This document shows positions 1,599 through 10,010 of a stretch of DNA of 10,672 bases, piece after piece. Made by a program: the position numbers and the translations under genes. Numbering within the stretch: position 1 is the stretch's first letter; the number at the start of each line of letters is the position of its first letter. The notes below the pieces were generated by a model. That model had not been told where the DNA came from, made no database searches, and worked only from the letters and a program-made list of their open reading frames with translations. Source of the stretch: Desulfobacteraceae bacterium (GTDB lineage: Bacteria; Desulfobacterota; Desulfobacteria; Desulfobacterales; BuS5); contig DAOWMW010000020.1 of the NCBI GenBank assembly GCA_030642865.1, positions 1-10,672 of the forward strand, read 5' to 3'.

Positions 1599-1762
1599 TT
1601 AAGGGTTCGCACAAAAATAAATTGGCAAATTTAAGTGTTGAGGCGCCCGCCTGGCAAGGCACAAAAGTGCAGTAATATCAGGATATTCCTGCACTTTTGT
1701 AACGCAGTCAGGCGGGATGCATCGGCGCTTAAAATGTTAAGTTATTTTTGCGCGAGCCCTAA
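1599..1762. repeat. Complete 164-bp MITE-like element, copy A
   Basis: The element begins TTAAGGGTTCGC and ends GCGAGCCCTAA. Its termini form an imperfect inverted repeat of about 55 bp. In the centre is a long hairpin: ACAAAAGTGCAG pairs perfectly with CTGCACTTTTGT, enclosing AATATC-AG-GATATT. A second, inverted copy lies at 10125-10287, and end fragments at 165-186 and 8450-8478. There is no coding capacity. It is presumably a non-autonomous mobile or REP-like element lying between the lyase and dehydrogenase genes. Confidence 0.75.
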
Positions 1763-1771
1763 GGCATAATA

Positions 1772-1828
1772 AAATTTAAAAACTTTGAAAACCAGCTTGT
1801 ACTCAAACAACCAGAGCTTTTTAAATTT
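1772..1828. repeat. AT-rich hairpin downstream of the acyl-CoA dehydrogenase gene
   Basis: AAATTTAAAAA (1772-1782) pairs perfectly with TTTTTAAATTT (1818-1828), and the pairing continues imperfectly inward (CTTTG against CAGAG). It lies 55 bases past the stop of the leftward dehydrogenase gene. It could end that transcript, but no clear uridine tract follows on the minus strand. It may instead be another dispersed repeat. Confidence 0.4.
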
Positions 1829-1882
1829 CACAATAGCCCGGCTATGGTACCTGGTGGACTAAAATAGAACCAATTCCGTTTT

Positions 1883-3031
1883 TTACGCGCCAATTAGTCT
1901 TGAAATAACAATCCTCTGTACTTCTGAGGTTCCTTCTCCGATTTCCAGTAATTTATGGTCTCTGTAAAATCTCTCAACATCATACTCTTTCATGAGCCCG
2001 TATCCGCCATATAATTGAACAGCATTATTTGCGCATCTTCCCATAACTTCCGAGCAGTAAAGTTTAGCCATGGCTGCCTCTTTGGAAAAAGGCTCATTAT
2101 TATCCCTCAGCCAGCATGCCTTATAAAGGAGAAGACGGGCGCACTCCACTTCCACAGCCATATCAGCAAGTTTAAAAGCATTTGCCTGGAATTTGCAGAT
2201 TTTTTGGCCAAACTGTTCCCGCTGGTTACTGTATTTTAAAGCCATATCCAGGCACCCCTGGGCTCCCCCCAGACCCATAGCTGCAATGGAGAGTCTTCCG
2301 CCGTCTAAAGTCTGCATCATCTGGTAAAAGCCGTGTCCCATGGGTCCTATCTGATTTTTTTTAGGAACTCTGCAGTCATTAAAGTACAATTCAGCAGTAT
2401 TTGACCCCCTCCACATCATTTTTCCATGCATCGGTTTTGCTGTAAACCCTGGTGTCCCATTTTCAACAATAATACAGGTGAGTTCGGGTCTGCCGTCATC
2501 ACGGGTTCCTGTTCTGCATAAAATAGTGGAACCCAAAGTAATGTCAGTCGCAGCATTTGTTATAAAAATTTTGCTTCCGTTTATGACCCATTCGTTTCCA
2601 TCAAGAACCGCGGTTGTTGTGGAGCTGCCGGCATCTGAACCAGCATTTGGTTCTGTCAGCCCAAATCCCCAAAGAGCTTCCCCTGAGCATAGTTTTGGAA
2701 GATATTTTTTCTTTTGTTCATCATTTCCAAAATAATATAATGGGCCTATGCCCAAAGAATTTCCAGCAGCTACAGTGGCAGCATGTGATCCGTCAATCCT
2801 CGCAATCTCTTCAACTGTGATAATATATGAAAGATAGCTCATACCCTGGCCATTGTAGCTGGGAGAAACAAATGGACCGAAGAGACCCAGTTCACCCATC
2901 TTTTTCATTGTTTCGCAGGAAAATTCTTCTTTTTCATCCAGTTCCTGTGCAACCGGTTTGATCTCGGCAACGGCAAAATCACGGACAGCATCACGAAGCA
3001 TTTCCTGTTCCATTGTGAGTTTATAATCCAT
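1883..3031 (-). CDS. Acyl-CoA dehydrogenase (short-chain / butyryl-CoA dehydrogenase type)
   Basis: This 382-residue flavoprotein would oxidise an acyl-CoA to the 2,3-enoyl-CoA in the cytoplasm, passing electrons to ETF. It is full length for the family. The FAD/substrate motif GFGLTEPNAGSDAGS spans 122-136. The usual N-terminal helical, middle beta and C-terminal helical layout is recognisable. Glu366 in IGEGTSEVQR (364-373) sits where the catalytic base of short-chain and butyryl-CoA dehydrogenases lies. Isovaleryl-CoA dehydrogenases usually lack a Glu at this site, which argues against that activity. The start at 3031 has AGGAG six bases upstream. The gene is divergent from etfBA across a 507-bp region, which suggests shared control. 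The substrate cannot be read from sequence: butyryl-CoA-like and substituted succinyl-CoA esters both remain possible. Confidence 0.9.
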   Translation of the reverse strand: MDYKLTMEQEMLRDAVRDFAVAEIKPVAQELDEKEEFSCETMKKMGELGLFGPFVSPSYNGQGMSYLSYIITVEEIARIDGSHAATVAAGNSLGIGPLYYFGNDEQKKKYLPKLCSGEALWGFGLTEPNAGSDAGSSTTTAVLDGNEWVINGSKIFITNAATDITLGSTILCRTGTRDDGRPELTCIIVENGTPGFTAKPMHGKMMWRGSNTAELYFNDCRVPKKNQIGPMGHGFYQMMQTLDGGRLSIAAMGLGGAQGCLDMALKYSNQREQFGQKICKFQANAFKLADMAVEVECARLLLYKACWLRDNNEPFSKEAAMAKLYCSEVMGRCANNAVQLYGGYGLMKEYDVERFYRDHKLLEIGEGTSEVQRIVISRLIGA

Positions 3032-5332: not shown

Positions 5333-5407
5333 CCCCTTTGTTCCCGGCCAAAATCTCTTGTTAAGAGAGATTAATCCGGGGAGAAGGGGTCACATCTTAA
5401 TTTTTTC
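5333..5407 (+). terminator. Hairpin terminator after etfBA
   Basis: CCCCTT...CCCGG (5333-5347) pairs with CCGGGGAGAAGGGG (5376-5389), and an inner stem AATCTCTT / AAGAGAGATT extends it. A T-run (5401-5406) follows after about ten bases. The distance to the T-run is longer than ideal. The hairpin also separates etfA from the convergent response-regulator remnant and may act in both directions. Confidence 0.45.
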
Positions 5408-5516
5408 CACGATTCTTCAATGCTTTTTTGATAGTTTTTGCAAGATCGTCCATGGCAAAAGGTTTTATCAACAAAGCGTCAATCCCCATATCTTCAGCTT
5501 TTTTAAAAGAAATTTT
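5397..5516 (-). pseudogene. C-terminal remnant of a response-regulator receiver domain
   Basis: Minus-strand translation gives about 40 residues ending in a TAA at 5397-5399, including KKAEDMGIDALLIKPF and then MDDLAKTIKKAL. This is the classic end of a CheY-like receiver domain: the conserved Lys-Pro after beta strand 5, then helix 5. Upstream, similarity ends where the TGTAACTACTCAGCTA repeat begins (5516), and the frame soon meets a stop. The phospho-acceptor Asp and the rest of the domain are missing, so it is a broken gene, apparently cut off by or at the repeat. Confidence 0.65.
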
Positions 5517-5570
5517 GTAACTACTCAGCTACACTGATTCAGTGTATTGCAACGGGTGTAATCTGAAGCA
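5516..5570. repeat. Copy of the ACTACTCAGC dispersed repeat
   Basis: TGTAACTACTCAGCTA is identical to 188-203, and the following ACACTGATTCA...CAAC...AATCTGA matches 3071-3120. The left boundary coincides with the truncation point of the receiver-domain remnant. The right boundary is uncertain. Confidence 0.5.
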
Positions 5571-5942
5571 GGGTACTAAAAGAGTTGCTAAAAATAATCA
5601 CATTAAATATAGTAATATTACTACACATATAGTGTCTAAGCTGGGCGATGCCCACAACCTGTATTTTCAAAATATTCACTTGCGTTTCCAGGCTTTGCAA
5701 GCCTGTTGCTGTCTATACTTGCAAGGTGATTAAAAAAAAATTGTTTTTTAGGGCAGGAATTCAGGAGTACTGTAATTTATAGAAAAATCAGAATTTTCGA
5801 AACCTGTTGCTTGCATCAACGGAGTAAAATTATTTGTGTGAAAGTCTATTATACAAGGTCTTCCAAGTTAAGAAGTTTGGCTTAAATTAAATATTAGATC
5901 CAGAATACTTAAGGAGCGTGAATTTATTTCATCCCCAATCCT
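5571..5942 (+). other. Apparently noncoding leader region of the glycyl radical enzyme gene
   Basis: No credible gene was found between the repeat and the glycyl radical enzyme. A hairpin CAGGCTT/AAGCCTG sits near 5690-5706, flanked by CACTTGC and GCAAGGTG that can extend the pairing. Runs of A and T near 5732-5750 follow it, so it might terminate transcription entering from the left. TTATAC (5849-5854) is a possible -10 box without a good -35. No clear sigma54 -24/-12 pair was seen. The promoter of the enzyme probably lies here but is not identified. Confidence 0.35.
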
Positions 5943-5949
5943 AAGGAGG
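5943..5949 (+). promoter_or_regulatory. Strong ribosome binding site of the glycyl radical enzyme gene
   Basis: AAGGAGG stands four bases before the ATG at 5954, a near-perfect Shine-Dalgarno match, and fixes the start codon. It suggests high translation, as expected for an abundant catabolic enzyme. Confidence 0.8.
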
Positions 5950-5953
5950 AAAA

Positions 5954-8446
5954 ATGGCTTCAGTATCAGAAAAAGAAACACAGGAACTTCTTGAAAAAAG
6001 AGAATATTGGAAATGGGCAGAAAAAACAAGATCTCCAAGGATCGACTACCTGCGAAAAGCTGTCTGGTCAAAAGCAACCAAGGGATCATCATATCTCCCT
6101 GGAATCAAGGCGGATACCGAGCTGATTTATCGGACTACAAAAGTTTTCAAAGAGGCTGACCCCATGGAACCATGGGTTCTGACCAAGGCTGCTGCTCTTG
6201 ATTCTGTTTTTGCTGATACACCCATTTTTATTATCGATCAATCAAGAATAGTCGGATACAACGGTTCGGCTCCCCACAAAATACAATGGATTCCATGGGC
6301 ATCCTACATGGGTAATGAGGATATTTTTAATGACAGGGCAGGGTATATTGATGAAAAAGACAGGCCATGGTTAAAAGAGGCATTGGATTACTGGAAACCA
6401 AGAACTCTTTTGGCAAAAGCTGAAAAATACCTTACTAACAAAGAAAGAATGGTCAGCGCCATGGGCTTTACCCTGTGGGGGAACCGGGCATTATCCAACT
6501 TTGATTATGTTACACTCCAGCCGGACTGGATGTATAAGTATGGACTGGAGGGGATTGTGGGCCAGATTGATGAAAATTTGGGAGCGGCCCTGAAAAAACT
6601 CCACGAGGGAGCCCCCGACGGAGCAGAAGCATTTGAGTTATTGCCCAAAATTGATCAATGGAAAGCGATGAGAACCTCACTTCTGGCTGTTATAAAATGG
6701 GCAAAAAGATATTCACGGCTGGCCAGAATAATTGCCGAAAATTTTACAGCTGATTCAAAAAGAAAAGAAGAGCTGCTAAGGATTGCTGAAACCTGCGAAA
6801 AAGTACCAGCCAGGCCCCCGGAGCATTTCTGGGAAGTGATTCAGTTTGATCATTTTACCAACCTTGCTTACAGGTTTGAAAGGGGAGCCACTGGTGCGTG
6901 GCCCTGCCGTTTTGATTACCACCAGTGGGAGTATTACAAAAAAGATGTTATAGATGAAAAGAATATGACCAGGGAAGAGGCTGTGGAATATTGTTCTGAA
7001 CTCCGTATGAGGTGCTATGAAACCACAGGTATCATATTCCGGCTTGCAAGGGAGAGCTCCCAGGGTGGTATTGTGTATGTTTGGACTTTGGGAGGTGTTG
7101 ATGAGGAAGGAAATGATGCGTGCAATGATCTGACAGATTGTTATCTCGAGGCTGCACGTCTTGTTAGAACATGTGATCCCAGCATAGGGTTCAGATACCA
7201 TCCCGATGTAAGAACTGAAACCCTTAAACAAGTTTTTGAATGTATAAAACATGGTTTGGGATACCCATCCATGCGAAACGACTCCGTATGTATCGAATCT
7301 TTACGACACTGGTTCGGGTTTGACCTTAAGGATGCAAGACGGTGGATGCATCAGGCATGCATGGCGCCAGCTCCCAATACTAAAATGGGGGCGCCACACT
7401 ACAGGTATCCCGGCCCCATAACCAGTGCCGGTGTAAAATCTTTGGAGCTGGCTCTGTTTAATGGAATGGATCCTGTTAGTAAAATGAGGATGGGTATTAA
7501 AACTGGAGACCCTTTAAAATTTAAAACCTATGAAGAATTCTATCAGGCGTGGTTAAAACAGCATGAGTATATTATGTACATGGGATGCCGGATAGACAAT
7601 ATTATCAGATGGGTAGTCGGAACACAGCACCCCAGACCGTTGATATCGGCTCTTTTTGAAAGATGTGTTGAAAGCGGACAGGATGCAGACCTGTATGCCA
7701 AGGAAAAAGCAAGCCTCTGGTTTACCCATTTTGGATTCAGCGAATTTGGAGATGCCCTGGCTGGATTAAAAAAACTGGTTTATGATGAAAAAAAATATAC
7801 CATGGAACAATTGCTCGAAGCCATCAAATCCAACTGGAGAGGATCTGAAGAGATGAGGATGGACTTTGTCAAGGCACCCAAGTGGGGAAATGATGATGAT
7901 TATGTTGATCATATATACACCAGGGGGATGAAGGATATCGCTGAAATTTCATGGCGGTGCAAAAATCCCGGGGGAAATCCATGGCCTATTCTTCCGGAAA
8001 ATGTGGCAGCCTATATTGTATCTTCCAATAAGGTTGGAGCCCTTCCCAATGGCAGAAGTTTTGGCGATACCATGTATGATGGGGGATGCTCACCAGGGGC
8101 AGGGCTCGACAAAAAAGGTCCCACAGCAGTATTAAGATCAGTCTCCAAGTTTGATCATGTAAAAGATTTCAGGTCTAATCTGCTCAATCAGAGACTTAAT
8201 CCCAATCAATTTACCGGTGACAGGGGATTTGAACTCTGGCGAAATTATATACAATCCTGGTCGGATCTGGGAATCAACCATGTTCAGTTTAACATGGTTG
8301 ATAATGAAACATTACTTGCAGCCCAGATAGAACCCGAAGATTACCCTGAACTCCTCGTAAGGGTGGCCGGGTATAGTGCTCATTTTGTTGAATTAAACAG
8401 AAAATCCCAGGATACTATTATTGCCCGCACAGTACAATCTTTATAA
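5954..8446 (+). CDS. Glycyl radical enzyme, X-succinate synthase-like (fumarate-adding) catalytic subunit
   Basis: This 830-residue cytoplasmic enzyme has the pyruvate formate-lyase-like barrel domain and a C-terminal glycyl radical domain. The radical would sit on Gly806 in RVAGYSA (803-809). The thiyl cysteine is Cys469 in HQACMAP. The preceding GALPNGR (695-701), DGGCSPGAGLD (709-719) and GPTAVL (722-727) are typical of the family. Decarboxylases and dehydratases carry Cys-x-Glu at the active cysteine, whereas this protein has Cys-Met-Ala. Arg484 lies exactly 15 residues after Cys469, the same spacing as Cys493/Arg508 in benzylsuccinate synthase, where the arginine contacts fumarate. The Cys-to-Gly distance (337) nearly equals that of BssA (336). 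The inference is radical addition of an organic substrate to fumarate; the substrate is unknown. Unusually, it stands alone: no activating radical SAM enzyme and no BssB/BssC-like iron-sulfur subunit adjoin it. An uncharacterised glycyl radical subfamily remains possible. Confidence 0.82.
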   Translation: MASVSEKETQELLEKREYWKWAEKTRSPRIDYLRKAVWSKATKGSSYLPGIKADTELIYRTTKVFKEADPMEPWVLTKAAALDSVFADTPIFIIDQSRIVGYNGSAPHKIQWIPWASYMGNEDIFNDRAGYIDEKDRPWLKEALDYWKPRTLLAKAEKYLTNKERMVSAMGFTLWGNRALSNFDYVTLQPDWMYKYGLEGIVGQIDENLGAALKKLHEGAPDGAEAFELLPKIDQWKAMRTSLLAVIKWAKRYSRLARIIAENFTADSKRKEELLRIAETCEKVPARPPEHFWEVIQFDHFTNLAYRFERGATGAWPCRFDYHQWEYYKKDVIDEKNMTREEAVEYCSELRMRCYETTGIIFRLARESSQGGIVYVWTLGGVDEEGNDACNDLTDCYLEAARLVRTCDPSIGFRYHPDVRTETLKQVFECIKHGLGYPSMRNDSVCIESLRHWFGFDLKDARRWMHQACMAPAPNTKMGAPHYRYPGPITSAGVKSLELALFNGMDPVSKMRMGIKTGDPLKFKTYEEFYQAWLKQHEYIMYMGCRIDNIIRWVVGTQHPRPLISALFERCVESGQDADLYAKEKASLWFTHFGFSEFGDALAGLKKLVYDEKKYTMEQLLEAIKSNWRGSEEMRMDFVKAPKWGNDDDYVDHIYTRGMKDIAEISWRCKNPGGNPWPILPENVAAYIVSSNKVGALPNGRSFGDTMYDGGCSPGAGLDKKGPTAVLRSVSKFDHVKDFRSNLLNQRLNPNQFTGDRGFELWRNYIQSWSDLGINHVQFNMVDNETLLAAQIEPEDYPELLVRVAGYSAHFVELNRKSQDTIIARTVQSL

Positions 8447-8609: not shown

Positions 8610-10010
8610 CTAATGCGCTGTCTTTAAAGTCTCCCAGAGCTTTTTTACCTGTTTTCTTGTTTCATCAATACTCTTTTCATTATCAATAATGTAATCAGCA
8701 TATCCCTTTTTTTCCTCTATGGGAAGTTGAGCTCTCAGCATATTTTCCGCTTCTTCCTGAGTTATCCCTTCACGTTTCAGGAGGCGCTTAAGCTGCTCAT
8801 CGCGGGAGGTGTAAACAACCACCAGGCTGTGAAACATATACTGTAAGTTAGTCTCAATCAGCAGAGGAATTACCACCTGGATTATTGCATCAGGGTCTTT
8901 TTTTGCAATGGACTCGACCTGTTTGACAAATTCTTCATGAATCCTGGGATGTATAAAGCTCTCCAGTTTTTTTCTTTTTTCAAGATCACTAAAGACTATT
9001 TTTGAAAGAACATCCCTTTTTAATTGACCATCTTCTGCAATGACCTGTTTCCCGAAATATTCAACGATATTTGTCCATGCAGGTTTTTCCGGTTCAACAA
9101 CATCTCGTGAAATAATATCAAAATCTATGGTGTGGGCCCCCAGATCCTCCAGCATATTCGATACTGTTGTTTTGCCGCTGGCAATCCCTCCTGTGAGGCC
9201 AATGAGACGGCGATTATCTTTTCCGCGAATTGTTTCGATATCATCAATTCCTGAATATGTAAAGGGGAAGGTTGCCTCAATACTCAACTCTGCTCCTGCA
9301 AAACTTATGGGATAACGGATTCCTCTTCTGTATAAAGTTTCCATTCCAGCAAGGGCTTTTTCCATCATATTTGCAGGAAGCGCCATCACCATATCCTCAT
9401 CCTGGGCATGTCCATATCTGCGTTCACCATAGCAAGGTATGGTTAGAGATGGCTTTTGGGTTAGATAGCACCTTGCAATGGCATCGGAGCATGATGATTC
9501 TCCAACGCAGAAAAACTTCATAACCTCATAATTTTCAAACTGAAGAGAATTAATCAAAAGAATCATCTGCGCGGGATTGGCATATATAAGAACAATGTCC
9601 GGCTCAAATGGATTATAAACCAGGGGGGCCATTACAACTGCCTGGTATCTCCCTGAAGGAATTCTTTGAATGGACTCTTCATATTTTTTCCCATCCGCCC
9701 TGGTCTTGGCCCATACTATACTCCGAAAGGTGCCATCTTTATATATGTCAGGCAAATCTGTCATTCCTATAATAGATGGACACATTGGAGAAAAAAAATC
9801 ATCCATATCTGCTCCAACAGTCCAGTCAAAATTTCTGACAAGAGTTATAAGCTGGCAAAGGGTAACCTTATTGTCCAACCTGCGTATAAATTTTATTTTG
9901 TCCAGATCTTCTCTTTTTTCAAGCATTTTAAAAGCCACGGGAAATGACTTAAGCCTCATTAGAAGTTCCAGACGTCTTATTATTTTTTCCCAGTCGTTTG
10001 TTTTTGTCAT
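8610..10010 (-). CDS. coaE: DUF169 - dephospho-CoA kinase (CoaE) fusion protein
   Basis: This 466-residue protein joins two domains. Residues about 8-245 resemble DUF169, a family of unknown function common in anaerobes. It has several cysteines (52, 77, 168, 174, 181, 193) and a P.L..PCYGERRYG segment (187-200). Residues about 268-466 are a full-length CoaE, the ATP-dependent kinase that phosphorylates the 3'-hydroxyl of dephospho-CoA in the last step of CoA synthesis. Supporting motifs are the P-loop GLTGGIASGKTT (271-282), IDFDIISRDV (295-304), HPRI (354-357), IPLLIET (381-387) and ADYIIDN (438-444). The usual IDAD is IDFD, but the aspartates are retained. Free-standing CoaE is about 200 residues, so the N-terminal half is an addition. 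No frameshift is seen at the junction. An AAGGTG lies ten bases before the ATG, a rather long spacing. The gene converges on the glycyl radical enzyme. Confidence 0.88.
   Translation of the reverse strand: MTKTNDWEKIIRRLELLMRLKSFPVAFKMLEKREDLDKIKFIRRLDNKVTLCQLITLVRNFDWTVGADMDDFFSPMCPSIIGMTDLPDIYKDGTFRSIVWAKTRADGKKYEESIQRIPSGRYQAVVMAPLVYNPFEPDIVLIYANPAQMILLINSLQFENYEVMKFFCVGESSCSDAIARCYLTQKPSLTIPCYGERRYGHAQDEDMVMALPANMMEKALAGMETLYRRGIRYPISFAGAELSIEATFPFTYSGIDDIETIRGKDNRRLIGLTGGIASGKTTVSNMLEDLGAHTIDFDIISRDVVEPEKPAWTNIVEYFGKQVIAEDGQLKRDVLSKIVFSDLEKRKKLESFIHPRIHEEFVKQVESIAKKDPDAIIQVVIPLLIETNLQYMFHSLVVVYTSRDEQLKRLLKREGITQEEAENMLRAQLPIEEKKGYADYIIDNEKSIDETRKQVKKLWETLKTAH

Follow-up and report, generated by a model that had tools for sequence, protein, structure and literature searches.

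Fumarate addition is the start of oil-hydrocarbon degradation in many anaerobes, and alkylsuccinate synthase is the enzyme that joins alkanes to fumarate in oxygen-free bacteria. The solved complex of (1-methylalkyl)succinate synthase (MAS) is, by its structure title, an alpha-beta-gamma-delta assembly. Its MasD chain (9o8u) and the AssA proteins are the described systems closest to the enzyme analyzed here, followed by the benzylsuccinate synthase (BSS) alpha subunit TutD/BssA (4pkc). A further relative, at locus L068, comes from the uncultivated Peptococcaceae SCADC of methanogenic alkane-degrading cultures and is probably the putative AssA reported for that organism (PMC4161757). PMC13298812 names the BSS residues Arg508, Trp613, Asn615, Ile617, and Gln707, and according to it small subunits appear necessary in characterized fumarate-adding enzymes. 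The stretch of DNA analyzed here (the window) is an entire contig of 10,672 bp (C152) from a Desulfobacteraceae genome assembled to 1.62 Mb in 285 contigs (67% complete). Its glycyl radical enzyme gene (Table 1) is preceded by 5,953 bp and followed by only 2,226 bp.

The window protein matched the Pfam families PFL-like (E 1.6e-121) and Gly_radical (E 6.3e-26). A sequence search of solved structures returned MasD 9o8u (E 6.8e-231), then TutD (1.1e-150), and then glycerol dehydratase as the next family (1.9e-97). An AlphaFold model computed from 36 sequences (pLDDT 85.2, pTM 0.89) was matched by Foldseek first to 9o8u_A, at a TM score of 0.94 and 44% identity over the full length, and then to benzylsuccinate synthase (TM 0.91-0.92, 34%). 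A careful 41-row tree placed the window enzyme on the AssA/MasD side against four BssA-like rows with support of 100/100, within a seven-row set (99/98) that also holds L055, L056, L058, L093, and two paralogues from its own genome. This set lies outside the 20-row set (100/100) containing MasD and Desulfatibacillum AssA; a 10-row clade, which includes L068 (51% identical to the window enzyme), is also separate. A 19-row clade seen in a quick tree (109 rows, SH-aLRT 95) was not resolved in the careful tree. Named relatives are a sample: one scan with two peptide patterns gave 289 confirmed stretches, of which the best 80 were taken, and among these the closest is an enzyme of DeMMO5_3 (G058; 62% identical). 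Genome G003 belongs to the same family as the window organism; "Desulfobacterales bacterium isolate G11" (L122) has an enzyme identical to the one in G003. The original prediction of an X-succinate-synthase-like enzyme is thus borne out by sequence, fold, and tree, which place the protein among fumarate-adding relatives and narrow the assignment to the alkylsuccinate side. Because MasD and Desulfatibacillum AssA fall in another strongly supported clade, alkylsuccinate function is transferred here at approximately 44% identity.

Table 1. Features of the window enzyme gene and of related loci elsewhere. Window positions are given for the 10,672-bp contig; C and L numbers denote contigs and loci.
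Feature	Location	Strand	Remarks
Ribosome-binding site AAGGAGG	5943..5949	+	4 bases 5' of ATG, read from sequence
Alkylsuccinate-synthase-type glycyl radical enzyme gene, alpha-subunit homologue	5954..8446	+	830 aa, ATG start
Codon 374, first past one-residue deletion in probable substrate-pocket loop	7073..7075	+	From alignment; pocket role inferred
Cys469, thiyl cysteine	7358..7360	+	Between strands 464-467 and 471-474 in model
Arg484, equivalent of BssA Arg508	7403..7405	+	Invariant in 36/36 aligned
Trp589, Thr591, Phe593 (W-x-T-x-F)	7718..7732	+	Equivalents of BssA Trp613, Asn615, Ile617
Glu682, equivalent of BssA Gln707	7997..7999	+	Glu 29/36, Gln 7/36
Gly806, glycyl-radical residue	8369..8371	+	Between strands 801-804 and 807-810 in model
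Candidate radical SAM activase	C62:8048-9043		Own genome, other contig than window; above PFLE_PFLC cut-off
MasE-like small protein, about 113 aa	L036 (own genome C62) 7667-8007	-	In-frame TGA codon starts at 7941
Relatives of the C62 small protein	L077:13334-13681, L111:11629-11970, L137:1006-1350		

The catalytic residues were found exactly where they had been placed from the sequence: Cys469, Ala471 at +2 (no Glu), Arg484 at +15, and Gly806, with a Cys-Gly spacing of 337. In the glycyl radical fold, Cys and Gly are expected between short strands, and the model places both residues in this way. The TutD row is numbered one behind the crystal structure (Cys493 = 492), a shift that was applied when BssA residues were mapped. 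Among 36 aligned enzymes including that of the window, R484, W589, and F593 are conserved in all 36, and T591 is conserved in 33. MasD shares the Cys/Arg/Gly layout and, like the window enzyme, has Trp, Thr, Phe, and Glu at the positions equivalent to 589, 591, 593, and 682. In contrast, TutD/BssA, on the opposite side of the tree and at 34% identity, agrees in the Cys, Arg, Trp, and Gly positions but has Asn615, Ile617, and Gln707 where the window enzyme has Thr, Phe, and Glu. By homology to 9o8u and 4pkc, Arg484 would face the active-site pocket. NCBIfam models for glycyl radical enzymes of other chemistry (lyases, dehydratases, or decarboxylases) do match the protein, with E values down to 3e-118, but all 12 matches lie far under their cut-offs. 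Together with the missing +2 Glu, the Arg at +15, and the grouping with alkylsuccinate synthase in tree and fold, these sub-threshold matches led us to reject such a chemistry, which we consider highly improbable.

The window enzyme differs from MasD/AssA not only in falling outside their clade but also in its probable pocket loop. One residue is missing after position 373 in this enzyme and in its two near paralogues (81% identical), while 37 of 37 other enzymes have Gly at this site. We take the loop, from its counterpart in BSS, to line the substrate pocket, and its deletion may reflect a specialized substrate. The same three enzymes also deviate together at other near-invariant sites; for the part beyond residue 526, this comparison covers one of the two paralogue rows. 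At position 20, these three have Lys or Asn in place of a Trp that 35 of the 37 others keep. When the window gene was compared with paralogue C173a, pN was 0.12 and pS was 0.74 (near saturation), values that rule out a recent duplicate or a decaying pseudogene; judged from these substitutions, the gene at 5954-8446 looks old, functional, and under purifying selection.

We assign a probability of approximately 0.7 to the reading that the product of 5954-8446 is the catalytic alpha subunit of a divergent alkylsuccinate-synthase-type fumarate-adding enzyme that is activated in trans. Observation covers the residues, fold, tree placement, and an activase gene in the genome; the chemistry and the pairing with the C62 activase are our inference. 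A radical SAM activase encoded elsewhere, for which that on contig C62 is the best candidate, would install the radical on Gly806. The radical would then pass from Gly806 to Cys469, and Cys469 would abstract a hydrogen atom from a hydrocarbon or a similar aliphatic substrate. The substrate radical formed in this step would add to fumarate, which Arg484 and Trp589 would hold in place.

The original claim that no activase or small-subunit gene adjoins the enzyme gene holds: none was found in the window among ORFs of at least 80 aa, among short Cys-rich ORFs inspected by eye, or with two small-subunit models run genome-wide. The ORF list and family searches identified as neighbors an HMGL-like protein, an acyl-CoA dehydrogenase, EtfB, EtfA, a DUF169-dephospho-CoA kinase fusion, and AMMECR1. 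The ETF, acyl-CoA dehydrogenase, and HMGL-like genes are uninformative about the role of the enzyme. The fusion protein, encoded at 8610-10010 on the minus strand, joins a DUF169 domain (14-221) to a dephospho-CoA kinase (269-457). Short dispersed repeats occupy the intergenic region 5' of the enzyme gene (5513-5567, 5638-5736, and 5906-5942), and copies of approximately 80 to 95% identity are present on other contigs of the same genome. A receiver-domain-like ORF of 30 aa (5397-5489, minus strand) had no significant relative among the 15 loci compared. Promoter and terminator scans remained at chance level, and Rfam at gathering scores gave no match on the window, L036, or L067.

A base-rate sample comprised 96 related rows, which are non-independent, and the window was excluded from it for its short downstream flank. 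Flanks of at least 5 kb on each side are available for 29 genes; an activase lies within 10 kb of 20 of them, and three have no activase (10 kb), C-type (3 kb), or zinc-ribbon (4 kb) gene nearby; a lone enzyme gene is therefore uncommon but not unique. When flanks of at least 3 kb on each side are required instead, 38 rows qualify: a C-type gene is present in 25, a zinc-ribbon gene (selenoprotein type included) in 28, and neither in six. The C-type families match MasB and MasC, and a 54-aa form is recognized by Pfam as BssC_TutF (E 5.9e-17); the zinc-ribbon (E-type) proteins match MasE (E 1.3e-23).

When the window protein was searched against its own genome, 13 matching places were found. Five alkylsuccinate-type genes lie on four contigs: that of the window, C173:1-2277, a gene split between C166 and C173, C166:3145-5643, and C261:8057-10555. 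The two pieces of the split gene (C166:1-1578 and C173:2651-3706) overlap by 141 identical bases at the contig ends and so were taken as one gene, the reading as two genes being rejected. C269, C61, C248, and a C115 fragment encode more distant glycyl radical enzymes. On C166 (L031, approximately 1668-1945, minus strand), fragments 58 to 60% identical to parts of the enzyme, one of them with two stops, are what is left of an additional copy between two intact-looking ones. C261 also encodes a putative methylmalonyl-CoA-mutase-type large subunit, an activity presumably downstream of alkylsuccinate.

Two activases of this genome score above the family cut-off (PFLE_PFLC): one on C269 beside its own enzyme and the candidate on C62. 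The suggestion that the window enzyme depends on an activase encoded elsewhere thereby gains a named candidate, which stands among genes recurring in alkylsuccinate-type loci, although its pairing with the window enzyme is our proposal. C62 is a contig of 9,580 bp, with one gene running off an end, and it also encodes, according to Pfam, a VWA protein and another radical SAM protein, as well as a MoxR-like ATPase, named by likeness.

Searches for small subunits gave a different outcome. The C-type model found no match in this genome, whereas it matched eight of eight other genomes, five of which had given rows to the model, such that G003, G051, and G071 are the independent controls. In four further genomes having an alkylsuccinate-type enzyme, the model matched two, and a miss is therefore not rare. 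The sole match of the zinc-ribbon model was the C62 small protein, a piece of which had been used to build the model. Apart from this protein, no masB, masC, or masE homologue was found in the 67%-complete genome, a further difference from MasD/AssA and a negative outcome of the search for BssB/C-like proteins that had been proposed. With a third of the genome unassembled, the missing genes are not proof of absence, and the proposal that the enzyme works without small subunits is not established.

Two explanations for the missing partners were weighed against activation in trans of a divergent alpha subunit. The window enzyme may have no functional peculiarity and be an alkylsuccinate synthase alpha subunit of the ordinary kind, with the genes for its beta, gamma, and delta partners in the unassembled third of the genome, an explanation to which we give an even chance. 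The fragmentation of the assembly and the short, truncated C62 contig are consistent with it. So are locus L137 of the sister genus (G001), which within 19 kb unites homologues of most C62 genes, including an activase 42% identical, with C-type and E-type small-subunit genes and an alkylsuccinate-type enzyme gene, and the C-type genes that adjoin the enzyme gene in L055, L057, L058, L059, and L068 (directly downstream in L068, unlike the window). However, no beta, gamma, or delta gene was found near any of the five paralogues on their four contigs, several of which end close by, and the pocket-loop deletion and the other common changes at near-invariant sites also argue against an ordinary alpha subunit.

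Alternatively, the subfamily may have lost the Fe-S gamma subunit and may work alone or with another accessory protein. The lack of a C-type match in this genome and the replacement of Trp20 point in this direction, as does a BssC-like protein of the sister genus (G001 and G003) without its four conserved cysteines. Yet absence from a 67%-complete genome is weak evidence, the sister genus retains E-type genes and another C-type gene, and characterized enzymes appear to need their small subunits, as noted above; loss of the gamma subunit is thus unlikely. The altered BssC-like protein (62 aa; L042 and L043, 1299-1487) is encoded just 5' of the enzyme gene and has been kept in both genomes. Under the preferred reading of a divergent alpha subunit activated in trans, the window enzyme stands alone on its contig but is probably not partnerless in the cell.

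An excess of alpha subunits over activases recurs in this genome, in DeMMO5_3, and in G091. At the start of contig C104 of DeMMO5_3 lie the C-terminal 95 residues of an alkylsuccinate-type enzyme, its gene cut by the contig end, and small-subunit genes; this contig carries two activase genes in tandem, one 61% identical to the C62 activase; the other alkylsuccinate-type enzymes of this genome are on C84, C90, C107, C145, and C23. Among 23 matches in G091, nine long and two partial ones are of the alkylsuccinate type; this genome also has five activase-like places, including a tandem pair on C264. One activase may serve several alpha subunits, and the five paralogues of the window genome seem to use one accessory set. 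Tandem pairs of differing activase-like radical SAM genes were observed in the alkylsuccinate-type clusters L135 (2037-3954), L136 (1538-3477), and L093 (782-2670). Proteins of approximately 130 to 160 aa, often paired, recur near enzyme or small-subunit genes in L057, L059, L067, L068, L122, L135, and L137; the one that was searched matched PNPOx_N weakly, below the cut-off (E 4.7e-4).

The MasE-like small protein on C62 contains an in-frame TGA, which lies 107 bases from the activase gene, and is probably a selenoprotein, as judged from comparison of its homologues. Among solved structures, MasE alone is a convincing relative (E 1.7e-6). At the aligned position, 40 distinct sites in the fetched loci comprise 24 TGA, 15 Cys, and one Ile, and the TGA form occurs in the named strain Desulfosarcina alkanivorans PL12 (L077). 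Distances were tabulated for 36 sites, the remaining four being in loci left out; 31 of these have a glycyl radical enzyme gene, and 25 an activase, no more than 5 kb away. The hairpin 3' of the codon is more stable after TGA (mean -16.6 kcal/mol, n = 24) than after Cys or Ile (-11.8 kcal/mol, n = 16; p 1.6e-5), a comparison that, like those that follow for the larger class, counts related rows as independent. In this class, all six core hairpin pairs are present in 12/19 TGA members versus 0/10 Cys members, with Gly encoded by GGA in 16/19 versus 2/10 and Leu by CTC in 16/19 versus 3/10. Coverage of these stretches by known SECIS models consisted of the Rfam search of L036 and L067, which was negative.

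The selenocysteine machinery was less informative. SelB scores above the cut-off in 30 of 34 genomes, including that of the window (E 1.5e-111), and so does not discriminate TGA from Cys genomes; three of the four genomes below the cut-off carry the TGA form (L111, L112, and L121). tRNA-Sec passes in 29 of 34, and three of the five negative genomes have the TGA form: that of L112, the window genome (best score 42.9 bits against a cut-off of 47; 67% complete), and G049, which is 100% complete and has SelB. In 14 control genomes, tRNA-Sec passes in five and SelB in two, making tRNA-Sec the weaker sign. Searches with the small-protein family gave no match at the displayed cut-offs of NCBIfam or Pfam. 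Among NCBIfam models, "zinc ribbon-containing (seleno)protein DG" comes nearest (26.7 bits versus 130), such that a distant seleno-relative may already be catalogued, and the best Pfam match is a zinc finger (E 9.9e-5). The U/C-x-x-C or U/C-C motif could, as a guess, form a redox or metal site. No report of a selenoprotein in alkylsuccinate synthase systems was found in the literature searched, which included few subscription journals. We tentatively suggest, as a possibility with less than even odds, that alkylsuccinate synthase systems widely include a selenocysteine MasE-like accessory protein in the same clusters, and that several dispersed subunit-less alpha subunits of this genome, including that of the window, share the C62 activase and selenoprotein set rather than having their own beta, gamma, and delta subunits.

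The window enzyme belongs to the AssA-like enzymes outside the characterized clade. Five alpha subunits on four contigs with one fitting activase make the need of each alpha for its own small subunits testable. Standard gene calling would end or begin at the TGA codon of the small protein. A selenocysteine protein in alkylsuccinate synthase clusters would add an unrecognized redox component to a well-studied pathway, and this side finding may outweigh the main finding in importance.
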